Source: a virus. From it: DNA of 28,607 nt. The notes below the pieces were generated by a model. That model saw only the letters and a list, made by a program, of their open reading frames with translations, made no database searches and was not told where the DNA came from. Shown piece after piece: positions 6,091 through 21,691 of the stretch (the stretch's first letter is position 1; every line of letters begins with the position of its first letter). The stretch lies in the IMG/VR virus record IMGVR_UViG_3300047386_000147, positions 1 to 28,607 of that record. One strand, 5' to 3'. The position numbers were made by a program, and so were the translations under genes.

Positions 6091-8130
6091 ATGAGTGAAC
6101 TATACGAACAAGACCCATTGATGATCCAAGAATCTCTTGAAGACTGGGTTATGACTAAATGCGAAGACTGGAGGGACCACTACGAAAGCAACTATGAAAA
6201 CAAATTTGAAGAATATTATCGACTCTGGCGTGGTCAGTGGGACCCTTCTGACAGCGAGCGTAGGTCTGAGCGTTCCCGTATTATTTCTCCTGCACTTCAA
6301 CAGGCTGTTGAGTCTAATGTAGCAGAGTTAGAAGAAGCTACGTTTGGTCGTGGCAAGTGGTTTGACGTTAGTGACAACTTCGGAGACACCCAAAGACAAG
6401 ACGTGCAGTTCCTTCGTAACAAGCTTACGGAAGACTTTGAAAACTGCATGATACGTAAAGCTGTCGCAGAGTGTCTAATTAACTCAGCAGTCTTTGGTAC
6501 AGGCATTGGTGAGATTGTTATTGAAGAAATGAAGGAAATGGTTCCTGCTACTGAGCCTATTATGGAAGGTCAGTTGCAAGCTGTAGGTGTAAACATTACT
6601 GACCGTGTGGTTGTTAAGCTTAAGCCAGTAATGCCTCAGAACTTCCTAATTGATCCTGTAGCAACTAATGTTGAAGACGCTATGGGTGTAGCTATTGACG
6701 AGTTTGTTAGCAAACACCAAGTAGAACTTCTGCAGGAACAAGGCGTGTACCGTGACGTGTACGTTGGTTCTGCTGCTCCTGATACTGACTTAGAGCCTGA
6801 CCAAGACCTAACTATTTACAATGACGACAAGGTACGTTTGACTAAGTACTATGGTTTAGTGCCACGAGAGCTTCTAGATTCCGCTACAAGCGACGAAGAC
6901 GAAGAACTGGTAGGTGAGGTAGAGTCAGATTCTCGTTACGTAGAGGCCGTTGTAGTGGTTGCTAACGGCGGTATACTTTTGAAGGCAGAAGCTAACCCCT
7001 ACATGATGTCTGATCGTCCTGTAGTAGCTTTTCCTTGGGACGTAGTACCTGGTCGCTTTTGGGGTCGTGGTGTTTGTGAAAAAGGCTACAACAGTCAGAA
7101 AGCTTTGGACACAGAACTACGTGCTCGTATTGATGCCTTAAGCCTTACAATTCATCCTATGATGGCTATTGATGCCACTCGTTTACCACGTGGTGCAAAA
7201 CCAGAAGTACGTCCTGGTAAGATGATTCTAACCAACGGAGATCCACGTGAAGTACTTCAACCGTTCAACTTTGGTCAAGTTAGTCAAATCACTTTTGCTC
7301 AAGCCGGAGCACTGCAGCAGATGGTACAGCAAGCAACAGGAGCAGTGGACTCAGCAGGAATTGCAGGTCAAGTTAATGGCGAGAGTACTGCCGCTGGCAT
7401 TAGTATGTCTCTTGGCGCTATTATTAAACGTCATAAGCGTACACTGATTAACTTCCAACAATCTTTCCTTATTCCTTTTGTTAAGAAAGCTGCGCACAGG
7501 TACATGCAGTTTGATCCTGAAAACTATCCTGTAGCTGACTACAAGTTTAACGCAAGCAGCACTTTAGGTATTATTGCACGTGAGTACGAAGTAACTCAAC
7601 TTGTGCAACTACTACAAACTATGGGTCAGGACTCACCGTTGTACAGTACACTAATAGAATCAGTTATTGACAACATGAATCTGTCTAACCGTGAAGAACT
7701 ACTTGCAGCTATGCAACAAGCTTCACAGCCTAATCCTCAAGCACAACAAATGCAGATGGAGGCTCAGCAAGCACAAATGCAGTTCCAGCAGTCACAAACA
7801 GCTGCTCTGTCTGCTCAGGCTCAAGAGTCACAAGCACGTGCCGCTAAGCTTGCTGCAGAGGCTGCTGTTGTACCGCAGGAGCTTGAGATTGACAAGATTA
7901 ACGCTATTACCCGTAACCTGCGTGAAGGTGACCAAGAGGACAAAGAGTTTGAACGTCGTCTTAAAGTTGCTGAAACGCTTATCAAAGAAAAAGCAATAGA
8001 CCAAAAAGGACAATCTAATGCTAATGACACAACGCGAAATGCAAACCCTGCTGGACCAAGTCAACAGCCACTTCAAGGGAACGTTCCAACGCCTAGACGA
8101 CCTGGAGAAGAAAGTGGAGGAGCTGTCTAA
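6091..8130 (+). CDS. Portal protein
   Basis: A 679-residue protein directly after the terminase. It opens with an acidic, aromatic helix region (WRDHYESNYENKFEEYYRLW, 27-46) followed by RSRIISPALQQAVES, a pattern common in portals of short-tailed marine phages. It has a long mixed alpha/beta core and a Gln/Ala-rich helical C-terminus (about 530-620) that may form the barrel inside the head, as in P22. It should form the dodecameric DNA channel and docking site for terminase and tail adaptor. It starts two bases after the terminase stop. The last 113 bases are shared with another frame (8018-8203). Confidence 0.9.
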   Translation: MSELYEQDPLMIQESLEDWVMTKCEDWRDHYESNYENKFEEYYRLWRGQWDPSDSERRSERSRIISPALQQAVESNVAELEEATFGRGKWFDVSDNFGDTQRQDVQFLRNKLTEDFENCMIRKAVAECLINSAVFGTGIGEIVIEEMKEMVPATEPIMEGQLQAVGVNITDRVVVKLKPVMPQNFLIDPVATNVEDAMGVAIDEFVSKHQVELLQEQGVYRDVYVGSAAPDTDLEPDQDLTIYNDDKVRLTKYYGLVPRELLDSATSDEDEELVGEVESDSRYVEAVVVVANGGILLKAEANPYMMSDRPVVAFPWDVVPGRFWGRGVCEKGYNSQKALDTELRARIDALSLTIHPMMAIDATRLPRGAKPEVRPGKMILTNGDPREVLQPFNFGQVSQITFAQAGALQQMVQQATGAVDSAGIAGQVNGESTAAGISMSLGAIIKRHKRTLINFQQSFLIPFVKKAAHRYMQFDPENYPVADYKFNASSTLGIIAREYEVTQLVQLLQTMGQDSPLYSTLIESVIDNMNLSNREELLAAMQQASQPNPQAQQMQMEAQQAQMQFQQSQTAALSAQAQESQARAAKLAAEAAVVPQELEIDKINAITRNLREGDQEDKEFERRLKVAETLIKEKAIDQKGQSNANDTTRNANPAGPSQQPLQGNVPTPRRPGEESGGAV

Positions 8131-8203
8131 TGTCAAAGAAAGCAGACCCAAGACTAGCACGAGCGGGCGTAAGCGGGTACAACAAACCAAAGAGGACTCC
8201 TAA
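8018..8203 (+). CDS. Small coiled-coil protein overprinted on portal 3' end
   Basis: A 61-residue frame, +1 relative to portal, with MTQREMQTLLDQVNSHFKG followed by LDDLEKKVEEL, a convincing heptad coiled coil, and a basic tail. AAAGGA lies 7 bases before the ATG at 8018. A second in-frame ATG is at 8024. It overlaps the portal by 113 bases and the next gene by 74. The portal end in the same DNA is low-complexity (Asn, Pro, Gly, Gln), the sort of region that tolerates overprinting. Comparable short coiled-coil genes follow portals in some marine phages. A role in head assembly is inference. Confidence 0.6.
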   Translation: MLMTQREMQTLLDQVNSHFKGTFQRLDDLEKKVEELSNVKESRPKTSTSGRKRVQQTKEDS

Positions 8204-8396
8204 TCACCCTAAGAAGTCCCACGTAGTTGTCGCTAAGGAAGGTGACAAAGTAAAGACTATACGCTTTGGCCAACAAGGCAAAACAGGTGATAAAACAATG
8301 ACTAAAAGGGCTAAGTCGTTCAAAGCAAGACACGCTAAGAACATAGCCAAAGGTAAGATGTCAGCTGCATTTTGGGCTAACAAAACTAAATGGTAA
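8130..8396 (+). CDS. Basic conserved phage protein (TIRFGQQG motif)
   Basis: An 88-residue, very Lys/Arg-rich protein. It contains SKKADPRLARAGVSGYNKPKR near the start and KTIRFGQQG (about 43-51), then KSFKARHAKNIAKGKMSAAFWA. I recognise this as a conserved small protein of marine and cyanobacterial phages with no settled function. Its charge suggests DNA binding or packing in the virion. GAGGAG lies 7 bases before the ATG, and the portal stop overlaps as TAATG. It is the first of four basic genes in a row. Confidence 0.75.
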   Translation: MSKKADPRLARAGVSGYNKPKRTPNHPKKSHVVVAKEGDKVKTIRFGQQGKTGDKTMTKRAKSFKARHAKNIAKGKMSAAFWANKTKW

Positions 8397-8406
8397 GGAG
8401 AACACT

Positions 8407-8520
8407 ATGCCAATGGTAAACGGTAAGAAGTACGCATACACTACAGCAGGTAAAAAGAAAGCTAAAGAAGCGGCTAAAAAAACAGGTAAAAAGGTTCGTT
8501 ATGCCAAAGGCAAAAAGTAG
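8407..8520 (+). CDS. Tiny Lys-rich protein
   Basis: A 37-residue frame starting MPMVNGKKYAYTTAGKKKAK, with Lys in over a third of positions. GGAG lies 6 bases upstream. The pattern MPMVxxKKYxYTxAGKKKAK is familiar from many phage genomes near head genes, without known function. It overlaps the next gene by 20 bases. Confidence 0.75.
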   Translation: MPMVNGKKYAYTTAGKKKAKEAAKKTGKKVRYAKGKK

Positions 8521-8656
8521 TCCTAAACCTAAAAACAAAGCTCTTTACTCACGAGTCAAAGCAGAGGCTAAAAAGAAGTACAAGGTTTGGCCTAGTGCGT
8601 ATGCTTCAGGTTGGTTGACTAAAGAGTATAAAAAGCGTGGTGGAACCTATGAGTAA
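8501..8656 (+). CDS. Small basic protein (PSAYASGW motif)
   Basis: A 51-residue protein with ALYSRVKAEAKKKYKVWPSA and YASGWLTKEYKKRGG. This is a conserved motif (xVKxxAKxKFxVWPSAYASxxLxxxYKxRGG) found in phage and some large-virus proteins of unknown function. The start lies inside the previous gene, with an AAGG site 6 bases upstream. The basic surface suggests nucleic-acid binding. It may act together with the other basic genes here. Confidence 0.75.
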   Translation: MPKAKSSPKPKNKALYSRVKAEAKKKYKVWPSAYASGWLTKEYKKRGGTYE

Positions 8657-8891
8657 AACCAAAGGCGGTCTTACTAAATGGTTTAAAGAGGATTGGGTGG
8701 ACGTTAAAACGGGTAAGCCTTGTGGTCGTAAATCAGCTACCAAGAGTAAACGTCCTTACCCTTCTTGTAGGCCTAAAGCGGTTGCAGCTAAGATGACAGC
8801 TGCTGAAAAGAAGTCTTCAGCTAAACGCAAAACCGGACCTGCTAAAATTAAACACGCAGTTACTGCTTCAGGGAGACGTAGAAAAAAGTGA
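8649..8891 (+). CDS. Basic protein with GGLTKWFKEDWVD motif
   Basis: An 80-residue protein starting MSKTKGGLTKWFKEDWVDVK, followed by CGR and YPSCRP and a Lys/Arg/Ala-rich tail ending GRRRKK. The pairing of WFKEDWVD with CGR...YPxCxP marks a widespread small viral family, possibly DUF5872 or a relative. I am not certain of the number. The two cysteines may bind a metal or be redox-linked. The ATG at 8649 is chosen over GTG at 8637 because it fits the family start. It overlaps the previous gene by 8 bases and the next by GTGA. Confidence 0.7.
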   Translation: MSKTKGGLTKWFKEDWVDVKTGKPCGRKSATKSKRPYPSCRPKAVAAKMTAAEKKSSAKRKTGPAKIKHAVTASGRRRKK

Positions 8892-9577
8892 GTTACGAAA
8901 CTAAAGTAAAGCAAGCTTTAGATATATGTTTAAACAAAAACTACTTTAAGGGAAACGATAAAGAAACAGCCATAGTAATGTACTCAGGTGGTATGGACAG
9001 TGTCTCATTACTATGGAATCTTTTGGAACATACAGAACAAGACATACACGTACACTCAATACACATAGACAACTCTGAAGGCCGTGTTAAAGCAGAAGCA
9101 AAAGCTATAGAGAACACGATCAACTATATGAGAAAGAACCAAAGACCCTTTGAGTTCTCTTCTTCGGTGTACTCTTGGAAAGCTAAGTATCCAGGTGGTA
9201 AGGACATGGTGCTTGCACTATTCCAAGCTATGAGGACTGCTTCTGGTTTAGGTAAAGCTTTTAACATTGTTTATACAGGTGACTACAACATAGGTAGAGA
9301 CGAAGGTGCTGAAGCACAAGGTGTGTTAAATGCACTATGTACTACACGACGTGTTAAGCCTATTTGGTTAGCACCTTTTGAACACATGACGTACAACTCT
9401 GTAGAACGTAGCAAAGGTATCTACTTAAGTATGCCTGAAGAGTTACGTGAGATGTACTGGTCCTGTAGACATCCTACCGATGCTTTAGGTGGGTTTATTG
9501 TCTGTGGTGACTGCCACGCTTGTGAACGACAACAAGCAATGCAAGAAAGTATAAAAAAAGACTTGACAAACGACTAA
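8888..9577 (+). CDS. queC: QueC-like 7-cyano-7-deazaguanine (preQ0) synthase
   Basis: A 229-residue PP-loop ATPase. It has SGGMDS at 33-38 (ATP pyrophosphatase loop) and a C-terminal zinc site C193, C206, C209 and C212 (CGDCHACERQ), the hallmark of QueC. QueC turns 7-carboxy-7-deazaguanine into preQ0 using ATP and ammonia. Phages use preQ0-type bases to replace guanine in DNA and escape restriction, or boost host queuosine. The usual partners (GTP cyclohydrolase, QueD, QueE, a DpdA-type transglycosylase) are not in this window. The GTG start overlaps the previous stop as GTGA, and GGGAG lies about 12 bases upstream. It sits between basic head-linked genes and scaffold, which is unusual. A different PP-loop role cannot be ruled out. 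Confidence 0.75.
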   Translation: MSYETKVKQALDICLNKNYFKGNDKETAIVMYSGGMDSVSLLWNLLEHTEQDIHVHSIHIDNSEGRVKAEAKAIENTINYMRKNQRPFEFSSSVYSWKAKYPGGKDMVLALFQAMRTASGLGKAFNIVYTGDYNIGRDEGAEAQGVLNALCTTRRVKPIWLAPFEHMTYNSVERSKGIYLSMPEELREMYWSCRHPTDALGGFIVCGDCHACERQQAMQESIKKDLTND

Positions 9578-9591
9578 AAATATGCTATACT
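9563..9591 (+). promoter_or_regulatory. Sigma-70-type promoter for scaffold/capsid unit
   Basis: TTGACA (6/6), exactly 17 bases, TATACT (5/6). The -35 lies inside the last codons of the QueC-like gene and the start site should be near 9598. ACTATAGT at 9595-9602 matches the palindrome at the 3716 promoter. This gives the capsid genes an independent strong start, which fits the high demand for coat protein. Confidence 0.8.
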
Positions 9592-9620
9592 ATTACTATA
9601 GTTAAACATTAGAGGAAACT

Positions 9621-9875
9621 ATGACTCCTGAGCTTGAAACTTATTTTAATAATTATAACGAACTCTTTAACCACGAAGGTTTCAAACAACTCATTCAAGA
9701 ACTTTCTACTAACGCTACTCAGCTTGCTGATATACAAACAGTAAAAGATATAGAAGATCTACATTATCGTAAAGGACAAGTAGCTGCCTTCGCAACTATT
9801 ATTAATTTACAAAACACTATTACTGCTGCTAGAGAACAAGCTGAAGCAGAAGAAGAAGAACCTTTAGATGTTTAA
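9621..9875 (+). CDS. Conserved small helical protein, head-gene region
   Basis: An 84-residue protein (MTPELETYFNNYNELFNHEG at the start), helical, with an acidic end (EAEEEEPLDV). The pattern of FNxEGxKQLI followed later by DLxxRKGQ recurs in short-tailed marine phages between portal and scaffold. GAGG lies 7 bases before the ATG. Function unknown. Location suggests a part in head assembly. Confidence 0.75.
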   Translation: MTPELETYFNNYNELFNHEGFKQLIQELSTNATQLADIQTVKDIEDLHYRKGQVAAFATIINLQNTITAAREQAEAEEEEPLDV

Positions 9876-10092
9876 AGTCTACGACTTCCGTTGTACTAAC
9901 GGACATGTCTTTGAAGAATTCGTAAAGCCTGACGTCACAACTAGTAGGTGTGGTTGTGGCGCTAACGCTAAACGATTGGTTTCTGCCCCATCTTTCCACC
10001 TTGACGGTGCTTCTGGAGATTTTCCAGGTCAGCACATGAAATGGGTTAGGGAACATGAAAAAGCAGGCCGTAATAAAAAAGAGGACGCCTAA
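9868..10092 (+). CDS. FmdB-type zinc-ribbon protein
   Basis: A 74-residue protein whose first 40 residues match the FmdB zinc-ribbon pattern: YDFRCTNGHVFEEFV, then CGCG, then KRLVSAPSF. Likely metal ligands are C9, H13, C28 and C30, so the usual first CxxC is replaced by CxxxH. FmdB ribbons are small regulators or assembly accessories, and similar genes lie beside capsid genes in several marine phages. It overlaps the previous gene by 8 bases and has only a weak AGAAGAAG ribosome site, so it is probably translation-coupled. Confidence 0.75.
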   Translation: MFKVYDFRCTNGHVFEEFVKPDVTTSRCGCGANAKRLVSAPSFHLDGASGDFPGQHMKWVREHEKAGRNKKEDA

Positions 10093-10150: not shown

Positions 10151-10960
10151 ATGTCAAGAGCGACACTAATTGACGAGCGTATTGAAGACGACTCAACAAC
10201 TACTGATCTTGAAGCCCAAGCGTTTGATGAGCCAACTCAAGAAAACCCCATACCGAAAGCCAAACCTAAAGAAGAAGACTTACCTGATAAGTACCAAGGA
10301 AAGTCAGTACAAGAAATTGTACAGATGCACCAAGAAGCTGAAAAGATGCTTGGTCGTCAGTCTTCCGAAGTTGGCGAGTTACGTAAGGTAGTAGACGACT
10401 TCATACATACACAACTCGAACAAAAAAACACACCTGTTCAACAGCCCGTTGACGAAGATGACGACATTGATTTCTTTACTGATCCAAAATCAGCCGTTAG
10501 TAAAGCTATTGAGAATCATCCTAAGATTAAAGAAGCGCAGGAATACACTACTCAGTACAAGAAGCAAACCGCACTTGCACAACTACAGTCAGAACATCCT
10601 GACATGCAAGACATACTAGGTGACGCTAAATTTGCTGAGTGGATTAAGGCTTCTAAATATAGGACTCAGATGTTTGTAGCAGCAGACCAGGAATATGATT
10701 ATGACGCTGCTAACGAGTTGTTCAGTCTTTGGAAAGAGCGTAACCAAATGGTTAAGCAGACAGCCAAAGTAGAACGAACAGCACGTAAACAATCTCTCAA
10801 AGCTGCAACTACCGGAACTGCTAGAGGAACAGCAGAGCGATCTCGTAAGAAGACTTATCGTCGGGCTGACATAATTAAACTTATGCGAACCGACCCTGAA
10901 CGCTATCAGTCTATGTCAGACGAAATATTTAAGGCGTACCAAGAGGGTCGAGTTAAGTAG
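10151..10960 (+). CDS. Head scaffolding protein
   Basis: A 269-residue, highly charged protein just before the coat gene. The N-terminal half is acidic and disordered (many D, E, T, P, Q). A helical middle follows, then a basic C-terminus (about 205-269: KQSLKAATTGTARGTAERSR, then short helices ending FKAYQEGRVK). This layout, a basic helical end that binds coat protein, is that of phage scaffolds. It would template procapsid assembly and leave before or during DNA packaging. GGCGGAG lies about 10 bases before the ATG. Confidence 0.8.
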   Translation: MSRATLIDERIEDDSTTTDLEAQAFDEPTQENPIPKAKPKEEDLPDKYQGKSVQEIVQMHQEAEKMLGRQSSEVGELRKVVDDFIHTQLEQKNTPVQQPVDEDDDIDFFTDPKSAVSKAIENHPKIKEAQEYTTQYKKQTALAQLQSEHPDMQDILGDAKFAEWIKASKYRTQMFVAADQEYDYDAANELFSLWKERNQMVKQTAKVERTARKQSLKAATTGTARGTAERSRKKTYRRADIIKLMRTDPERYQSMSDEIFKAYQEGRVK

Positions 10961-10983: not shown

Positions 10984-11976
10984 ATGGCTGGCGAAACCTC
11001 TGGAACTTATTTTACAGCGAATGCTGTAGTTGACAAAACTGCTGCTGGTACTTTCATCCCAGAAATCTGGAGTGACGAAGTAATTGCAGCTTACCAAAAG
11101 AACCTCAAGCTTGCACCTCTTGTAAAGCGTATCCAAATGTCTGGTAAGAAAGGTGATGTAATTCACATTCCTAAGCCAACACGTGGATCTGCTTCTGCAA
11201 AAGCTGAAGCTACTGCGGTAACAATCCAAGCAAACCTAGAGTCAGAACTGCAGATTGCTGTTGACCGTCACTTCGAGTACTCACGTCTTATCGAAGACAT
11301 CGTCGAAGTACAGGCGCTTAACAGCCTCCGTCAGTTCTACACTGAAGACGCTGGCTACCAGCTTGCTCTTAAGGTAGACACTGACTTGCACTCAGCAGGT
11401 ACTGGCTTTGGTAACGGTGGTTCAATCGTGTACTCTGGTTCAGTAGCTCCTACTGACTATCAGCACACTGGTTGTTTCTTCAACGACAACGGTACAACTA
11501 CTCAGTACACTGACGACACTCTTGTTTCTGGTGACGACTTTACTGACGCGTTCTTCCGTGACATGATTCAGAAGATGGACGACAACGACGTTCCTATGGA
11601 AAACCGTTGCCTTGTTATTCCACCTGCGACTCGTAATGCTATCATGGGCATTGATCGCTATGTGTCTTCTGACTTCGTAAGCGGTCAGTCAGTTAACTCT
11701 GGCCTTATCGGTAACCTGTACGGTGTAGACATCTACGTGTCTTCTAACTGTGCAACTATCGAAGCTGCTGGTGATAACACTGCAGGAACCGTTGATACAC
11801 GTGCTGCTCTTCTCTTCCACAAAGACGCAATTGTCATGGCAGAGCAAATGGCCGTACGTTCACAAACCCAGTACAAGCAGGAGTACCTCTCAACTCTGTA
11901 CACTGCTGACACTTTGTATGGTGTTCAGGTATATCGTCCTGAAGCTGGTTTCGTTCTCGCAGTACCTTCTGCATAA
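10984..11976 (+). CDS. Major capsid protein
   Basis: A 330-residue protein after the scaffold. Its N-terminus (FIPEIWSDEVIAAYQKNLKL, residues 24-43) and the following VIHIPKP and VDRHFEYSRLIED segments are typical of HK97-fold coat proteins of short-tailed phages. It has the strongest ribosome site seen here (AAGGAG, 7 bases from ATG) and a more GC-rich codon choice (AAC, TTC, GAC, CGT) than neighbours, both marks of very high expression. A terminator follows within 12 bases of the stop. Assembly would be on the scaffold encoded upstream. Confidence 0.9.
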   Translation: MAGETSGTYFTANAVVDKTAAGTFIPEIWSDEVIAAYQKNLKLAPLVKRIQMSGKKGDVIHIPKPTRGSASAKAEATAVTIQANLESELQIAVDRHFEYSRLIEDIVEVQALNSLRQFYTEDAGYQLALKVDTDLHSAGTGFGNGGSIVYSGSVAPTDYQHTGCFFNDNGTTTQYTDDTLVSGDDFTDAFFRDMIQKMDDNDVPMENRCLVIPPATRNAIMGIDRYVSSDFVSGQSVNSGLIGNLYGVDIYVSSNCATIEAAGDNTAGTVDTRAALLFHKDAIVMAEQMAVRSQTQYKQEYLSTLYTADTLYGVQVYRPEAGFVLAVPSA

Positions 11977-16795: not shown

Positions 16796-19700
16796 ATGGC
16801 TAAAAGTTCTCGAGGAATGTTTACAGGTGGGAGCGTGTACTCAGGAGGTACGCCTACCTTTGATGAAACTGTAGGCCAACCAACACTGCCAACTGGTGGG
16901 GTCAAAGGTGGTCCCACAAAGCAAGCTCCTATAGTTAGACCACCTCCTACTTCAGAACCTGCTCCTGCTCCAGAGCCAGAAACAGAAGAAATGACCTTTA
17001 CGTTTATAGAAGGTAGGGAAAGAGGAGGAGCACAACAGAACTATCTTTATGGTCAGGAAGGAGAAGTTCGACAGGTTACTGTAGACGAACTACGTGAGTA
17101 CTTTGAAAGCGACGAAGTAAACAGACTACCTGAAGTATTCGGTACGTTTGACAATTATCTTGCTTACATGACTGAGCGTGAAGAGTTACTTCAGTCTGGT
17201 GAGCTGACTGTTGGAGACTGGGCTAACGCAGACACCGGCTTTACCGAAGATCAACAAATGATTCTTGAGGGTGACGCTGACTTAACTATTGATCCTAGCG
17301 ACCCTGGTCAAAACTTAGAAAACTTACGTAGACAACAAACTAGTACTCAAGCTGGTGCTTATAACAACTGGTTGAACTCTGAAGCTAACCAAGCGTTACT
17401 ACGTAAGTACGGTGTTGTTACTGACCTTTATTCTACTTCGGGAGACCGCTTTAGATGGAATGGATCAGCCTACGTTAAAGTAGAAGACCAAAGTTCCGGT
17501 GCCGGAGACATCTTTAAAGCAGGTTTCCAAATTGCTGTAGGCTTAGCTTTAGGCGGTGCTGGAGTTGGATCTGCTCTTTCTTCTACAGTAGGTTTAAGTG
17601 GTGCTTCTGCTGCGGCTTTTTCTGCTGCTGTTAACTCAGTAATCTCACAGGTAGCTACCGGCGTCTTAACAGGTGGTGACTTAGACATAAGCCTTGAAAG
17701 TGTTATACAAGCTGCTGTTACTGGCGGTTTACTAGACACCGACATTGCACAGGAAGCACTCCAAGCATTAGAAACAGGTAACGAGTTTGTTGACGCTGTT
17801 GTTCAAGCAGGTGTTATTAACTCAGCTACTCAGTTAGCTACAAGCGGTGAATTAGACCCACAACAGCTTATTGAAGCTATGGTTCGCGCAGGTCTTACGG
17901 ACCAGTTTGGTGAGTACTTAGAAAACCTAGAAGACTTAGCACAAACTGAATTAGACCAGCTTGAGGAATTCTTTAGAGGCTACGTACCAGACATAAGTGC
18001 TATTGAAGACTTCTTGTCACAAGCAGAAGGTTTATTTGACACTGACATCTCTGAGTACACAGAGCAATTTGAAGAAATTGTAAGTCAAATTGGTGATGCT
18101 GTAGAAGGTGCTGTAGAAGAAATAGACGAAGAAGAACTAGAGTACAGAGCAGGTGAAGGCTACATAGACCCTGGTTCATACTACTACTATACCGACGAAA
18201 ACGGTAATAGAATTCTAGGTCAAGACATAGAAGGACTTCGGTATACTTCTGACGGAACTTATGTTGATGCTGACGGTAATGTCTATGACTTAGGAGGCAC
18301 TGCTGCAGTAAACGAAGACGGCACTGTTGATTACTATGACGGCTTTGCTGAAGACGGCGCGTCTATTATTGCTACAGGAGAAATCCAGTTAGGTCAAGAC
18401 GGTCTTTATGACTCTGAAGGCAACCTTGCTTACTACCAAGACGAAGGTCAATGGTTTGACGCCGACGGTAACATAGTAAGTGACCCTACTGTTGTAGACC
18501 AACTAACAGGTTTAACTGAAGGTCAGGTTCCTTATGATCCTAGACAGTTTTCAGACACTGCTTTTCAATCTGCTATTGATAGTGCAGTAGATCAACAAGA
18601 CATCGGTGCTATTGTCGATCATATGACAAGCATTGGAACAGGTGTAGACGCTAACGGTTTCTTTGGTCTCTCCGATTCAGACCAGGAAGTTTTAATGGGT
18701 TTGTTTGGTGTCTCAACTCAAGAAGAATTAGTTGAAGCACTGGCTCAGTCAGGATACACAGTTAATACTAACGGTTCTCAAGTAGTAATAGACTTTAACT
18801 ACGATAGAAGTGAAGAGTACGGTCAGATTAATGACGTAGATCAATCTGGCAACATTATTCGTGTACGAGACCCTAACGAACCAACAGAAATTTTTATAGA
18901 CCCTGAGTACGACCCTACTGAAGAAACGCCTGAGCCTGAACCTGAGCCTGAAATAGGTGGCGGTGGAGGTGGCGGAGGTGACTCTTCTACTACTCCTACT
19001 GATGAAGACGATCCATTAGCTAGTACTGTTCCTTCTGCTGAAGACACGGCTGAACAAATACGAAGGGATCAGGCTGAAGCCGCTGCGGAAAGACAGCAGA
19101 AAGAACAAGATGCTGCTGCGGAAAGACAGAAGGACGCTGCTGCAGCTGAGAGACAAAAGGATGCAGATGCTGCAGCCGAACGTGCATCTAAGGACGCTGC
19201 TGCAGAAGCTTCTAAAGATGCTGCTGAGCGAGCTGACAAAGAGACTGCTGAAAAAGCAGAAAAAGAATCTGCTGCAGAAACACAACAGAAAGAACAAGCA
19301 GCTGCAGAAGAAGCACAGAAGGAAGCCACTGCTGAAACTGAGCAAAAGGAAGCTGAAGCAGCTGAGGCAGCTGATAAGGAAGCTCAAGCAGAGACTGAAC
19401 AAAAGGAAGCTGACGCTGCTGAAAAGGCAGAGAAGGATGCTGCTGCAGAGACTCAGGAAAAAGAGCAGGCCGCTGCAGAACAACTTAAGAAGGACACTAA
19501 AGCAGAGACTCAGGAAAAAGAACAAGCTGCTGCTGAAAAAGCTGAGAAGGACCGTCAGGCTGAAGAAGATAAAAAAGAGTTAGCAGAAGCTGAAGGTAAG
19601 GACGCTGAGGAAACTCAAAAGGAACAGCAAGCAGAAACAGAAGAGAAAGAGGCTGCTGCTGAACAAGCAGAGAAGGACGCCGAAGCTGAAACTCAAGAAA

Positions 19701-21691
19701 AAGAAGAAGTAGCTGCAGAACAAACTAAGAAAGAAGCCGATGCTGAAACTCAGGAGAAAGAGCAGCAAGCAGCAGAAGAAGCTAAGAAAGAAGCCGATGC
19801 TGAAACCCAAGTAAAAGAAGAAAGAGCAGCAGAAGTAGCTGAGAAGGACGCTCAGGCTGAAACTGAGGAAAAGGAAGCTCAGGCTGCAGAGCAAGCTCAA
19901 AAGGATGCTGAGGCTGAAACTCAGGAAAAGGACGTAGCTGAACAACAAGAAAAAGACGCGGAAAAAGAAACAAAAGAAACGCAAGCTGAGCAACAAGATA
20001 AGGATGCTGAGAATAAAGCAAAGGAAGATGCTGCTGCGGAACAAGCTGACAAAGAAGCTGAAAACAAAACTAAGGAAGAGCAAGCGGCAGAGCAGGCTGA
20101 CAAAGATGCTGAGACTAAGGAAAAAGAAGAGATAGCTGCAGAACAATCAGATAAAGACGCTGAGCAAACCCAAAAGGACGCTCAGGCTGAGACTCAGGAA
20201 AAGGAAGAAGTAGCAGCTGAGGAAGCTAAGAAGGAAGCCGATGCTGAAACTGAATCTAAGGACGCAGAGACTGCTGAGAAGGACGCTCAGGCTGAAACCG
20301 AAGAGAAAGAAGAGGTAGCTGCTGAGACTGCAGAAAAAGATGCTCAAGCTGAAACAGAGCAGAAGGAAGAAGCAGAACAGGGTAGAAAAGAAGAAGCTGA
20401 AGAAATAGCTAAAGAAGCTGCTGAAGAAGTTCAAAAGGAAGAAGCCGAAAAGGAACAAAAAGACGCTGCTGCAGAGCAAGCTGATAAGGACGCAGAGAAA
20501 GAAGATAAAGACGCTATTGCAGAACAAGAAGAAAAAGATGCAGAAAAGGAAGATAAAGAAGTAGCTGCAGAACAGTCTGATAAGGATGCTGAGAAAGAAG
20601 CCAAGGATACTGCTGCAGAACAACAAGACAAAGATGCTGAAAAAGAAGAGAAAGATGTTGCTGCAGAACAGGAAGATAAAGATGTTGCTGCAGAACAAGA
20701 AACTAAAGAGGCTGCTGCAGAAGAGCAACGTAAAGAAGAGGCTGCTGCTGAGACTGCTGAGAAGGATGCCGAAAATAAAACTAAGGAAGAAACAGCTGCA
20801 GAACAGGAAGATAAAGACGCCGAAGAAACAGCTAAGGACGCTGCTGCAGAAACTAAAGAGAAAGAAGAAATAGCTGCCGAAGAAGCTCAGAAGGACGCTG
20901 AGGCTGAAACAGCAGAGAAAGAAGCTGAAGATCAAGCCAAGGACGCTGAAGAGGCTAAAAAGGAAGCTGACGCTGAAACTCAAGAAAAGGAAGAGGCTGC
21001 TGCAGAAAGATCAGAAAAGGAAGCTGCTGCAGAGACTCAAGAAAAAGAAGAAGCGGAGCAGGCACGTAAGGAAGAAGCTGAGCAGACTCGTAAAGAAGAA
21101 GTAGCTGCTGAAGAAGCTGTTAAGGAACAAGCTGCCGAAGAGCAAGCTAAAGAGCAGCAAGCAGCAGAGGAAGCCGCCAAAGAGCAACAAGCGGCTGAGG
21201 AAGCTACCAAAGACGAAAACGCCCAGAAGGACACCAGTGCTGAAACCGAAGCTAAGGATGCTGAACAAGCCAACAAGGATGCTGCTGACGAACAGTTAGA
21301 AAAGGATCTACAGTCTTCTGAAGAAGTACGGAAGGACGCTGAAGAGCAGGCCAAAGACACTACTGGAACTGGAGATGGTGACGGTGACGGAACTGGTGAA
21401 GGAACTGGTGTAGGAGACGGTACTGGAACTGGAGGTGGTTCAGGTGCTGGAACAGGGACTGGTACTGGTGATGGTTCAGGACCTGGTGTTGGTGGTGGTA
21501 CAGGCATGATGGCAGCTGCGGCAGCACCTAAGAAGACTGACTTTACTCCTTTCATGTCAGGCATTAATTACGAGTTGCCTACGTTGGAAGAAATAGGTCA
21601 AGCACCTCAAGTTGACTACGTAGCGTCTTTACAGGACACATTAGGACCAACCGGAATAACAAGCAGTTTGTTTAAGGAATATATCGGATGA
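16796..21691 (+). CDS. Giant virion-region protein with ~770-residue charged helix
   Basis: A 1631-residue protein in sections. It has a Pro/Gly-rich start (1-65), a folded acidic domain (66-235) and a hydrophobic Gly/Ala part that could touch membranes (about 237-368). A stretch with five D/N-x-(D/E)-G-N/T hairpin motifs follows (about 460-560). After a further domain come a PEPEPE-G8 linker (about 710-725), a region almost only of A, E, K, D, Q and T (about 752-1520), a Gly/Thr/Asp linker (1521-1580) and a short C-terminal domain. Units of 16 or 19 residues recur in the charged part. As one straight helix it would be about 115 nm long (1.5 A per residue). It starts right after the holin and overlaps the tail adaptor as ATGA, so it is probably a virion or ejected protein. 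Function unknown. Confidence 0.75.
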   Translation: MAKSSRGMFTGGSVYSGGTPTFDETVGQPTLPTGGVKGGPTKQAPIVRPPPTSEPAPAPEPETEEMTFTFIEGRERGGAQQNYLYGQEGEVRQVTVDELREYFESDEVNRLPEVFGTFDNYLAYMTEREELLQSGELTVGDWANADTGFTEDQQMILEGDADLTIDPSDPGQNLENLRRQQTSTQAGAYNNWLNSEANQALLRKYGVVTDLYSTSGDRFRWNGSAYVKVEDQSSGAGDIFKAGFQIAVGLALGGAGVGSALSSTVGLSGASAAAFSAAVNSVISQVATGVLTGGDLDISLESVIQAAVTGGLLDTDIAQEALQALETGNEFVDAVVQAGVINSATQLATSGELDPQQLIEAMVRAGLTDQFGEYLENLEDLAQTELDQLEEFFRGYVPDISAIEDFLSQAEGLFDTDISEYTEQFEEIVSQIGDAVEGAVEEIDEEELEYRAGEGYIDPGSYYYYTDENGNRILGQDIEGLRYTSDGTYVDADGNVYDLGGTAAVNEDGTVDYYDGFAEDGASIIATGEIQLGQDGLYDSEGNLAYYQDEGQWFDADGNIVSDPTVVDQLTGLTEGQVPYDPRQFSDTAFQSAIDSAVDQQDIGAIVDHMTSIGTGVDANGFFGLSDSDQEVLMGLFGVSTQEELVEALAQSGYTVNTNGSQVVIDFNYDRSEEYGQINDVDQSGNIIRVRDPNEPTEIFIDPEYDPTEETPEPEPEPEIGGGGGGGGDSSTTPTDEDDPLASTVPSAEDTAEQIRRDQAEAAAERQQKEQDAAAERQKDAAAAERQKDADAAAERASKDAAAEASKDAAERADKETAEKAEKESAAETQQKEQAAAEEAQKEATAETEQKEAEAAEAADKEAQAETEQKEADAAEKAEKDAAAETQEKEQAAAEQLKKDTKAETQEKEQAAAEKAEKDRQAEEDKKELAEAEGKDAEETQKEQQAETEEKEAAAEQAEKDAEAETQEKEEVAAEQTKKEADAETQEKEQQAAEEAKKEADAETQVKEERAAEVAEKDAQAETEEKEAQAAEQAQKDAEAETQEKDVAEQQEKDAEKETKETQAEQQDKDAENKAKEDAAAEQADKEAENKTKEEQAAEQADKDAETKEKEEIAAEQSDKDAEQTQKDAQAETQEKEEVAAEEAKKEADAETESKDAETAEKDAQAETEEKEEVAAETAEKDAQAETEQKEEAEQGRKEEAEEIAKEAAEEVQKEEAEKEQKDAAAEQADKDAEKEDKDAIAEQEEKDAEKEDKEVAAEQSDKDAEKEAKDTAAEQQDKDAEKEEKDVAAEQEDKDVAAEQETKEAAAEEQRKEEAAAETAEKDAENKTKEETAAEQEDKDAEETAKDAAAETKEKEEIAAEEAQKDAEAETAEKEAEDQAKDAEEAKKEADAETQEKEEAAAERSEKEAAAETQEKEEAEQARKEEAEQTRKEEVAAEEAVKEQAAEEQAKEQQAAEEAAKEQQAAEEATKDENAQKDTSAETEAKDAEQANKDAADEQLEKDLQSSEEVRKDAEEQAKDTTGTGDGDGDGTGEGTGVGDGTGTGGGSGAGTGTGTGDGSGPGVGGGTGMMAAAAAPKKTDFTPFMSGINYELPTLEEIGQAPQVDYVASLQDTLGPTGITSSLFKEYIG
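19050..21360 (+). repeat. Degenerate AEK/KD repeats coding for the charged helix
   Basis: Protein units of 19 residues (type AETQEKEEVAAEQTKKEAD) dominate 19440-20370. Units of 16 residues (type AEQSDKDAEKEAKDTA) dominate about 20470-20690. The DNA is rich in GCTGCAGAA and AAGGAAGA words. The opposite strand therefore reads as long Leu/Phe/Ser/Cys-rich frames that are not genes. Confidence 0.85.

Follow-up and report, generated by a model that had tools for sequence, protein, structure and literature searches.

The QueC-like gene and its neighbourhood

The window analysed here is the whole 28,607-nucleotide stretch of the viral record IMGVR_UViG_3300047386_000147, and the gene under study, which encodes a QueC-like protein of the PP-loop type, derives from an uncultured marine phage. 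The gene lies in a row of head genes on the forward strand (Table 1), the order being portal, PHROG 7595 protein, DUF5872 protein, QueC-like protein, p9621, zinc ribbon, scaffold and capsid, and its reading frame overlaps that of the upstream DUF5872 gene by four bases. The portal protein is distantly related (approximately 25 % identity) to those of the HMO-2011-type podoviruses of marine bacteria, and no close isolate was recovered by a megablast search with bases 1-25000, which returned a single 42-base match. Within the clade whose QueC-like proteins are 52-65 % identical, DUF5872, where found, follows the gene rather than preceding it, and DUF5872 was rejected as an obligate partner because blastp gave no match to it beside several gene-positive loci (e.g. 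L012 and L015). The PHROG 7595 proteins of the window and its relatives have two alternative C-termini, of the ARYWSCKKW and AAFWANKTKW types, both of which occur with and without the QueC-like gene. Elsewhere, the virion gene block of the window encodes a 1631-aa protein (positions 16796-21691) in which a Gly/Thr/Asp-rich stretch comes after very long, degenerate Ala/Glu/Lys-rich repeats, and the reverse strand (1477-2067) encodes a protein that matches PHROG 757 DNA methyltransferases (E 4.5e-64) and has no Pfam match.

Table 1. Features of the head-gene region of the window and of the QueC-like gene, with collagen-like inserts seen in relatives
Feature	Position	Strand	Basis or remark
Portal protein gene	6091..8130	+	PHROG 1216, E 1.5e-51
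Small basic protein, PHROG 7595	8130..8396	+	E 4e-35
Variable slot of the head operon, from the PHROG 7595 gene to p9621	8397..9620	+	Occupied by the QueC-like gene here and by other genes elsewhere
DUF5872 basic protein	8649..8891	+	Pfam PF19197, 28.1 bits, cutoff 27.5
QueC-like PP-loop gene	8888..9577	+	229 aa, GTG start, PHROG 1550, E 4e-12
SGGMDS pyrophosphate-binding loop, residues 33-38	8984..9001	+	Family alignment
E64-G65-R66-x3-E70 motif, where QueC has YxQxHxxE	9077..9097	+	R66 and E70 invariant, plus H56
Y133-N-I-G, aligned with QueC YPDC	9284..9295	+	hhalign of A4 against canonical QueC; column counts
CRHP ... CGDCHAC zinc-type cluster (C193, R194, C206, C209, C212)	9464..9523	+	Invariant in 37/37
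p9621, small Glu-rich protein	9621..9875	+	Conserved in synteny; no convincing family match
FmdB-type zinc-ribbon protein	9868..10092	+	PF09723, E 2.7e-5, below cutoff
Head scaffolding protein	10151..10960	+	PHROG 19777, E 4e-5
Major capsid protein, without Gly-Glu tail	10984..11976	+	PHROG 267, E 2e-52; C-terminus inspected
Collagen-like insert loci	L173:4989-5681, L180:4095-4787, L196:8001-8690, L225:2500-3189		

The sequence-only reading had pointed to a PP-loop and to the four cysteines C193/C206/C209/C212, and both are indeed seen in this reading frame. Residues S33, G34, G35, D37 and S38 of the loop are invariant across the 37 aligned family members, and H56, R66, W191 and R194 are among the invariant residues that only this family has. 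The cysteines, which form a predicted zinc site, are spaced C-x12-C-x2-C-x2-C; the spacing of eight residues that had been given for Bacillus subtilis QueC agrees with the canonical C(x)8CxxCxxC of PMC13329287, as against 12 here. Models named for QueC recognize the protein unevenly: the Pfam model scores 22.1 bits (cutoff 22) over residues 28-77 only, the NCBIfam model 19.5 bits, far below its cutoff of 150.3, and the PADLOC 'QueC' model (190 positions), top-scoring among those tried, 30.7 bits (E 7.5e-8). The match to PHROG 1550 spans residues 18-225, and was set aside as evidence of family since that cluster is unspecific and also takes canonical QueC, including that of Escherichia coli.

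A search of viral contigs found close relatives of the protein at 57 distinct IMG/VR loci, and later scans extended the set down to 54 % identity and beyond. Among 12 representative pairs, the 10 with finite dS (two of them with dS above 2.5) gave dN/dS values of 0.048-0.163, and the gene is therefore real and under purifying selection. At one locus (L058, G005:C1:4721-5408), the gene is broken in two, with TGA and TAG codons, which reflects either decay or an assembly error.

An accessory gene of the head operon

The distribution of the gene was assessed from a portal-based scan, in which the best 80 of at least 600 stretches were kept and 56 of the 80 show a scaffold or capsid gene as well. 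The QueC-like gene is present in four and absent from 52 of the 56 portal relatives in which the interval is visible, a sample from the best matches rather than a census. On a tree of capsid proteins with 66 rows (92 before the removal of duplicates), 13 changes are required to account for where the gene occurs, and well supported branches force at least 11 of these gains or losses. Because 52 of 56 relatives are without it and so many changes are forced, related viruses evidently do without the gene, which is accessory. A core head gene is thereby rejected, since those 52 relatives, drawn from the best 80 of at least 600, keep their head genes without it. The earlier statement that the gene lies inside the head-gene operon thus holds for its position among head genes, with the qualification that the gene is an accessory there; the location was nonetheless a good clue, even though the gene has been gained and lost within the clade.

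Where the QueC-like gene is missing, the variable slot is filled by other small genes, including ones for basic proteins. One relative has an HNH-endonuclease-like reading frame in the slot (L172:4012-4512), and in four gene-negative relatives a collagen-like protein with Gly-x-y repeats is encoded between the portal and PHROG 7595 genes (Table 1), both being judged from sequence.

Two rival explanations draw on this distribution. It is improbable, in our assessment, that the protein is a counter-defence factor, e.g. a mimic of Cap9 or QatC, interfering with type IV CBASS or Qat and retained only where hosts have those systems. The frequent gain and loss and a variable slot shared with other small genes are what this explanation has in its favour, together with a fold closest to that of Cap9 (see below). 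Against it, a mere decoy would have no need of the ATP loop and cysteine residues that are strictly conserved, an early counter-defence gene would hardly be expected in a head operon, and neither Pfam, PHROG nor synteny revealed a defence-protein partner among the neighbours. Slightly more improbable still is that the gene is plain inserted cargo, with a product that plays no part in the virion; accessory status agrees with this view, which would make both the position of the gene and the protein tails of its relatives, considered below, coincidental.

Departure from the canonical QueC signature

According to PMC13329287, QueC is recognized by SGGxDS, C(x)8CxxCxxC, YxQxHxxE, VPxRN and YPDC; residues Y35, R99, Y131 and Y189 are needed in the E. 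coli enzyme, and D133 is the aspartate that reads the nucleobase. In an alignment (A8) of nine canonical QueCs, that of E. coli and eight from phages, Y35, Q37, E42, R99, N100, D133 and Y189 are invariant throughout. When the 37-member family alignment was compared with A8 by hhalign (98.6 %), Y35 mapped to N62, Q37 to E64, H39 to V67 and E42 to E70, such that only the glutamate of YxQxHxxE survives. R99-N100 corresponds to K105-D106, the first column being R or K in 35 of 37 members and the second D or N in all 37. Y131 is retained as Y133, while D133 is lost to I135, in a column that holds M in 18 members, I in 11, D in five, T in two and L in one, and Y189 corresponds to R194, invariant in 37/37. 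The marine branch has kept the Tyr and lost the Asp; in the Muddy branch, the two positions hold His and Asp.

By the published QueC signature, then, the protein is predicted not to be a preQ0 synthase. The sequence-only reading had seen no preQ0 partner, and its impression extends to relatives: FolE, QueD, radical SAM and TGT proteins were each absent from 15 gene-carrying records of related viruses (23-37 kb, fragments or of unknown completeness) in searches to which the controls responded, and QueD from nine records or genomes of distant members. By comparison, genes for QueD, QueE, QueF or TGT flank five of eight canonical phage QueCs even though only about 60 flanking bases are displayed. 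In a tree, canonical QueC forms one clade apart from the QueC-like family with 100/99 support, the two being joined by long branches.

That same reading had also offered a single QueC relying on host CDG, and this option is not supported by the motif test: two residues shown by mutagenesis to be essential in E. coli (Y35 and Y189), as well as Q37 and D133, are replaced here, and the nine canonical QueCs retain them. It is weakened further by the relatives that occur in phages of mycobacteria. QueD is present in only 13 of 151 genomes of the family to which Mycolicibacter belongs, and it was not found in the Mycolicibacter genome that carries a QueC-like relative; a search of cellular genome contigs with the actinophage-type alignment (A5) gave one relative. 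Mycobacterium smegmatis is described as being without the preQ0 pathway in PMC6884629. A preQ0 synthase that acts on host CDG, and so raises queuosine in host tRNA or feeds DNA modification, accordingly keeps the QueC fold, the zinc-type site and the hhalign result on its side, and is nevertheless very improbable given the replaced residues, the absence of pathway genes from the records searched (the TGT family in none of 15) and the separate clade. The data are in line with the second option raised at the outset, namely a relative of QueC that has a new substrate.

Predicted fold and relation to Cap9, QatC and other ATP pyrophosphatases

An AlphaFold2 model built from 37 sequences has a mean pLDDT of 90.2. 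In a structure search with 1000 chains realigned, Cap9 came first (Z 16.2, 2.8 Å, 171 residues) and B. subtilis QueC second (Z 14.8, 3.3 Å, 179 residues), followed among others by NcsA (Z 13.5, 5.1 Å), Erwinia carotovora QueC (13.4) and QatC (13.1); in a search of BFVD, the Muddy protein ranked third. Since the gap between Cap9 and QueC is only 1.4 Z, the fold does not decide between them. The matches to NcsA, TtuA and LarE were set aside, the fold alone being in common.

These neighbours lend some weight to another explanation, namely that the protein acts on a small molecule, on DNA or on tRNA, with a substrate other than CDG, in the manner of TilS, NcsA/TtuA, GMP synthetase or the nitrile synthetase ArtA. 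All of the latter are structural neighbours (Z 11-13.5), and in a profile search D-N-x-E-G-R-x3-E, the motif of the family, was similar to GMP synthetase (E 0.002). Yet Cap9 and QueC are still the closest folds, and the recurrent location in virion operons and the association with tails in relatives (see below) speak against it, so that we consider it rather unlikely.

The comparison with Cap9 (type IV CBASS, PDB 9NTO), a QueC-like N-terminal deazaguanylase, is instructive in both directions. The likeness lies in the solved structure, the closest found, in small size, PP-loop and cysteine cluster, and in a lone gene without partners for preQ0 synthesis, in a case where the enzyme acts on a protein. 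Cap9 joins CDG to the N-terminal glycine of a CD-NTase (PMC11996544 and PMC13279940). However, Cap9 retains Y/FxQ, RN and YxDC, whereas the phage protein is changed at the equivalents of Y35, Q37 and D133, and Cap9 reads CDG with a Tyr and an Asp (Y115 and D117), where profile alignment to QueC gives the phage protein a Tyr but I135. Cap9 also adjoins its CD-NTase, and the neighbours of the QueC-like gene are head genes with no CD-NTase among them. As to the N-terminal glycine that Cap9 modifies, MG starts are nearly absent among the head proteins; for the five head proteins surveyed, those listed are three of 99 scaffolds (MGRAQ). An N-terminal glycine target among the neighbouring head proteins was not supported, N-termini being alike with and without the gene.

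QatC, from qatABCD, shares a QueC core in which the CDG-reading Tyr/Asp pair is altered, and PMC13279940 describes it as having lost that pair; it is proposed to modify protein. It differs in being longer (about 400 aa), with long extensions at both termini for which the 229-aa phage protein has no equivalent, and in its partner QatB, no QatB-like neighbour being recognized beside the QueC-like gene. Canonical QueC (PF06508 cluster 1, bacterial and phage) has the fold, SGGxDS and CxxCxxC in common with the family; the differences are the signature residues and pathway neighbours, which the QueC-like gene lacks.

Mycobacterium phage Muddy gp16 and FF47_16 belong to the same family by alignment, at 22-28 % identity, with a common H, E-G-R and W-x-C-R-x-P signature. 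Similarity is full-length and includes H, E-x-R-x3-E, W-x-C-R and CxxCxxC (alignments A1 to A4), and tblastn of the window protein against Muddy gives 24.6 % identity over 84 % (E 5e-7). The Muddy branch differs in having H-x-D where the marine branch has Y-N-I/M, in its hosts and virion types, and in the Gly-Glu tails on the Muddy capsid and tail proteins. In 2019, Hutinet et al. judged that the QueC-like singletons of Muddy and ECML-4 probably constitute another N-type ATP pyrophosphatase subfamily (PMC6884629).

Distant family members in virion operons

Distant members of the family recur next to genes for structural proteins. In Muddy and FF47, the gene sits between the major tail protein gene, which it directly follows, and that for the tail assembly chaperone; in PIS 136, it directly follows the major tail protein gene (PHROG 792, E 4e-90); and in L280, it starts at the stop codon of the major tail protein gene (PHROG 792, E 2e-113). 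In L126, it stands directly behind an SPP1-type capsid gene (PHROG 247, E 3e-115) and before the head-tail adaptor; in L124, before TerL and portal; in L125, approximately 4 kb before TerL; in L314, two reading frames before the tape measure gene (PHROG 25337, E 1e-14); and in L145, in a prophage-like region upstream of the capsid gene (PHROG 10, E 1e-16). Two members are exceptions. In L128, the gene is in a row with a SET-domain gene (region L128:9209-10588) and adjoins a 2OG-oxygenase-like gene (below cutoff), and in Klebsiella phage RCIP0012, the distant member lies among unannotated genes near a topoisomerase, none of them annotated as structural. Both exceptions favour a substrate among small molecules, DNA or tRNA.

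RimK-like ATP-grasp proteins are a family of protein glutamylases. In PIS 136, a gene of this type (L060:12705-13454; RimK 30.9 bits, cutoff 21) lies behind the QueC-like gene, and tblastn found no match to it in the other records of a collection of 50,697 phages. A reading frame similar to it occupies the same place in L127.

Gly-Glu-rich C-terminal tails

In four lineages that carry the QueC-like gene, capsid or tail proteins have a Gly-Glu-rich tail at the C-terminus, a link that is new here. In Muddy, the capsid protein ends in GGGSGEGEGESE and the tail protein in GGGGEGEGEGE, and FF47 is alike. Within Muddy's genus, NoShow and JacoRen57 have tail proteins that are 78 and 76 % identical to Muddy's and are directly followed by the chaperone gene; the QueC-like gene was not found in either by tblastn of the collection that contains both. 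Their tail proteins end in KAAA and KAPEEG and their capsid proteins in EVVTP and EEEETP, respectively, such that, in this same-genus comparison, capsid and tail proteins are tailed only where the gene is present. In L124, the capsid protein and the presumed tail protein both end in repeated GE, the major tail proteins of L124 and L125 being assigned by position, without a family match. The L126 capsid protein ends in GGGGENGGENGGENGGEV, and the 25 relatives listed for it align only to residue 318-322 of 343, the closest of them ending there. The PIS 136 capsid protein (PHROG 777, E 1e-165) ends in GEGEGEGGEGGEG, its L127 homologue is tailed too, and in L280 three proteins are tailed, i.e. the major capsid protein, the major tail protein and a third.

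In a scan of 248 loci (L001-L248) and the window, tails occur only in gene-carrying phages, although these loci are mostly marine and many are short, which makes them a weak control for siphophages. A second scan, for (GE)3 followed by a stop codon, gave 62 viral contigs. The QueC-like gene is present in four of the 38 that were searched whole and in one of the other 24, and was not detected in the remaining 57 of 62; a tailed reading frame of at least 150 aa occurs in 14, four of which carry the gene. The hypergeometric probability of five in 62 is approximately 3e-11, assuming 1000 gene-carrying contigs in 2.9 million, and this figure overstates the case because two of the five (Muddy and L124) prompted the idea and the lineages are related. 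Without Muddy and L124, three of 60 contigs carry the gene, and these include L310, which has a cut gene and a 70-aa tailed reading frame of no known family, and L283, in which the tailed protein is without an assigned function. Conversely, the major capsid proteins of L145 and L125 have no Gly-Glu tail despite the presence of the gene, and the presumed major tail protein of L125 ends in GGGG.

These observations bear on the cargo-gene explanation from both sides. Tail and gene each occur without the other, which favours it; the comparison within Muddy's genus and the three tailed proteins of L280 count against it.

In the window, the 19 proteins checked have no Gly-Glu tail, and its clade has none either, save for a weak one on the L067 portal protein when the rule was relaxed. 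The capsid C-terminus PSA (window positions 11961-11976 and relatives) occurs in 42 of 61 gene-positive and in one of 31 gene-negative rows. As PSA needs only three changes on the capsid-protein tree, the association is mostly one of ancestry, and PSA was rejected as a substrate mark.

A candidate ligase for virion proteins

The reading to which we incline, at just short of an even chance, is that the family comprises QueC-fold ligases that modify virion proteins and resemble Cap9 rather than QueC in what they do. A divergent QueC-fold N-type ATP pyrophosphatase would spend ATP to activate a carboxylate, and would then ligate a group onto a phage-made protein, most probably one of the virion, which would amount to an optional particle decoration. 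The carboxylate might be on a small molecule, as in CDG, or, as hinted by the adjacent RimK-like gene, on the Glu-rich tail. In the siphophage branch, the likely targets would be the Gly-Glu-rich C-terminal tails of the major capsid and tail proteins, and a like reaction on some head protein in the marine clade would be an extrapolation.

The data behind this virion-ligase reading are the predicted fold, the intact ATP loop and cysteine site and the lost QueC substrate signature, along with the lack of pathway genes in the records searched, the purifying selection, the accessory status, the recurrent placement in virion operons and the tail association in relatives; the ligation reaction, the virion-protein substrate and the attached group are what we infer. 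Its fuller version, in which QueC-like ATP pyrophosphatases, encoded singly or in some cases beside a RimK-like ATP-grasp partner, attach a new chemical group to the Gly-Glu-rich tails of siphophage major capsid and tail proteins and to another head protein in the marine clade, is less probable.

Several observations count against a virion ligase. There is no Gly-Glu tail on the 19 window proteins checked, head-protein N-termini are the same regardless of the gene, head genes persist without it in 52 of 56 relatives, and members without tails exist as do tails without the gene. Unrelated extra genes also insert in virion operons. Moreover, the target of Cap9, like that proposed for QatC, is a glycine at the N-terminus and not a C-terminal tail.

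Novelty and significance

The superfamily is known already, and this family was set apart from QueC in 2019 in PMC6884629; the link to tails is the novel part. In the open-licence literature searched, no paper was found on the function of the QueC-like family or on Gly-Glu tails. An ATP-dependent decoration of virion proteins would parallel the virion glycosylation of mycobacteriophages such as Che8 and Corndog, in which phage enzymes also modify the phage's own virion proteins, the difference being that these are glycosyltransferases as against an ATP pyrophosphatase here (PMC12363180). Glycosylation of that kind shields particles from antibody binding, as stated in PMC12363180, citing Freeman 2023. 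If the virion-ligase reading is true, it would supply a function for 'QueC' annotations that are without an explanation in Muddy and similar phages. That enzymes of the QueC fold can modify proteins is a recent finding, made in bacterial immunity. Phages that modify their own particles with the QueC fold would, if this reading holds, place this chemistry on both sides of the conflict.
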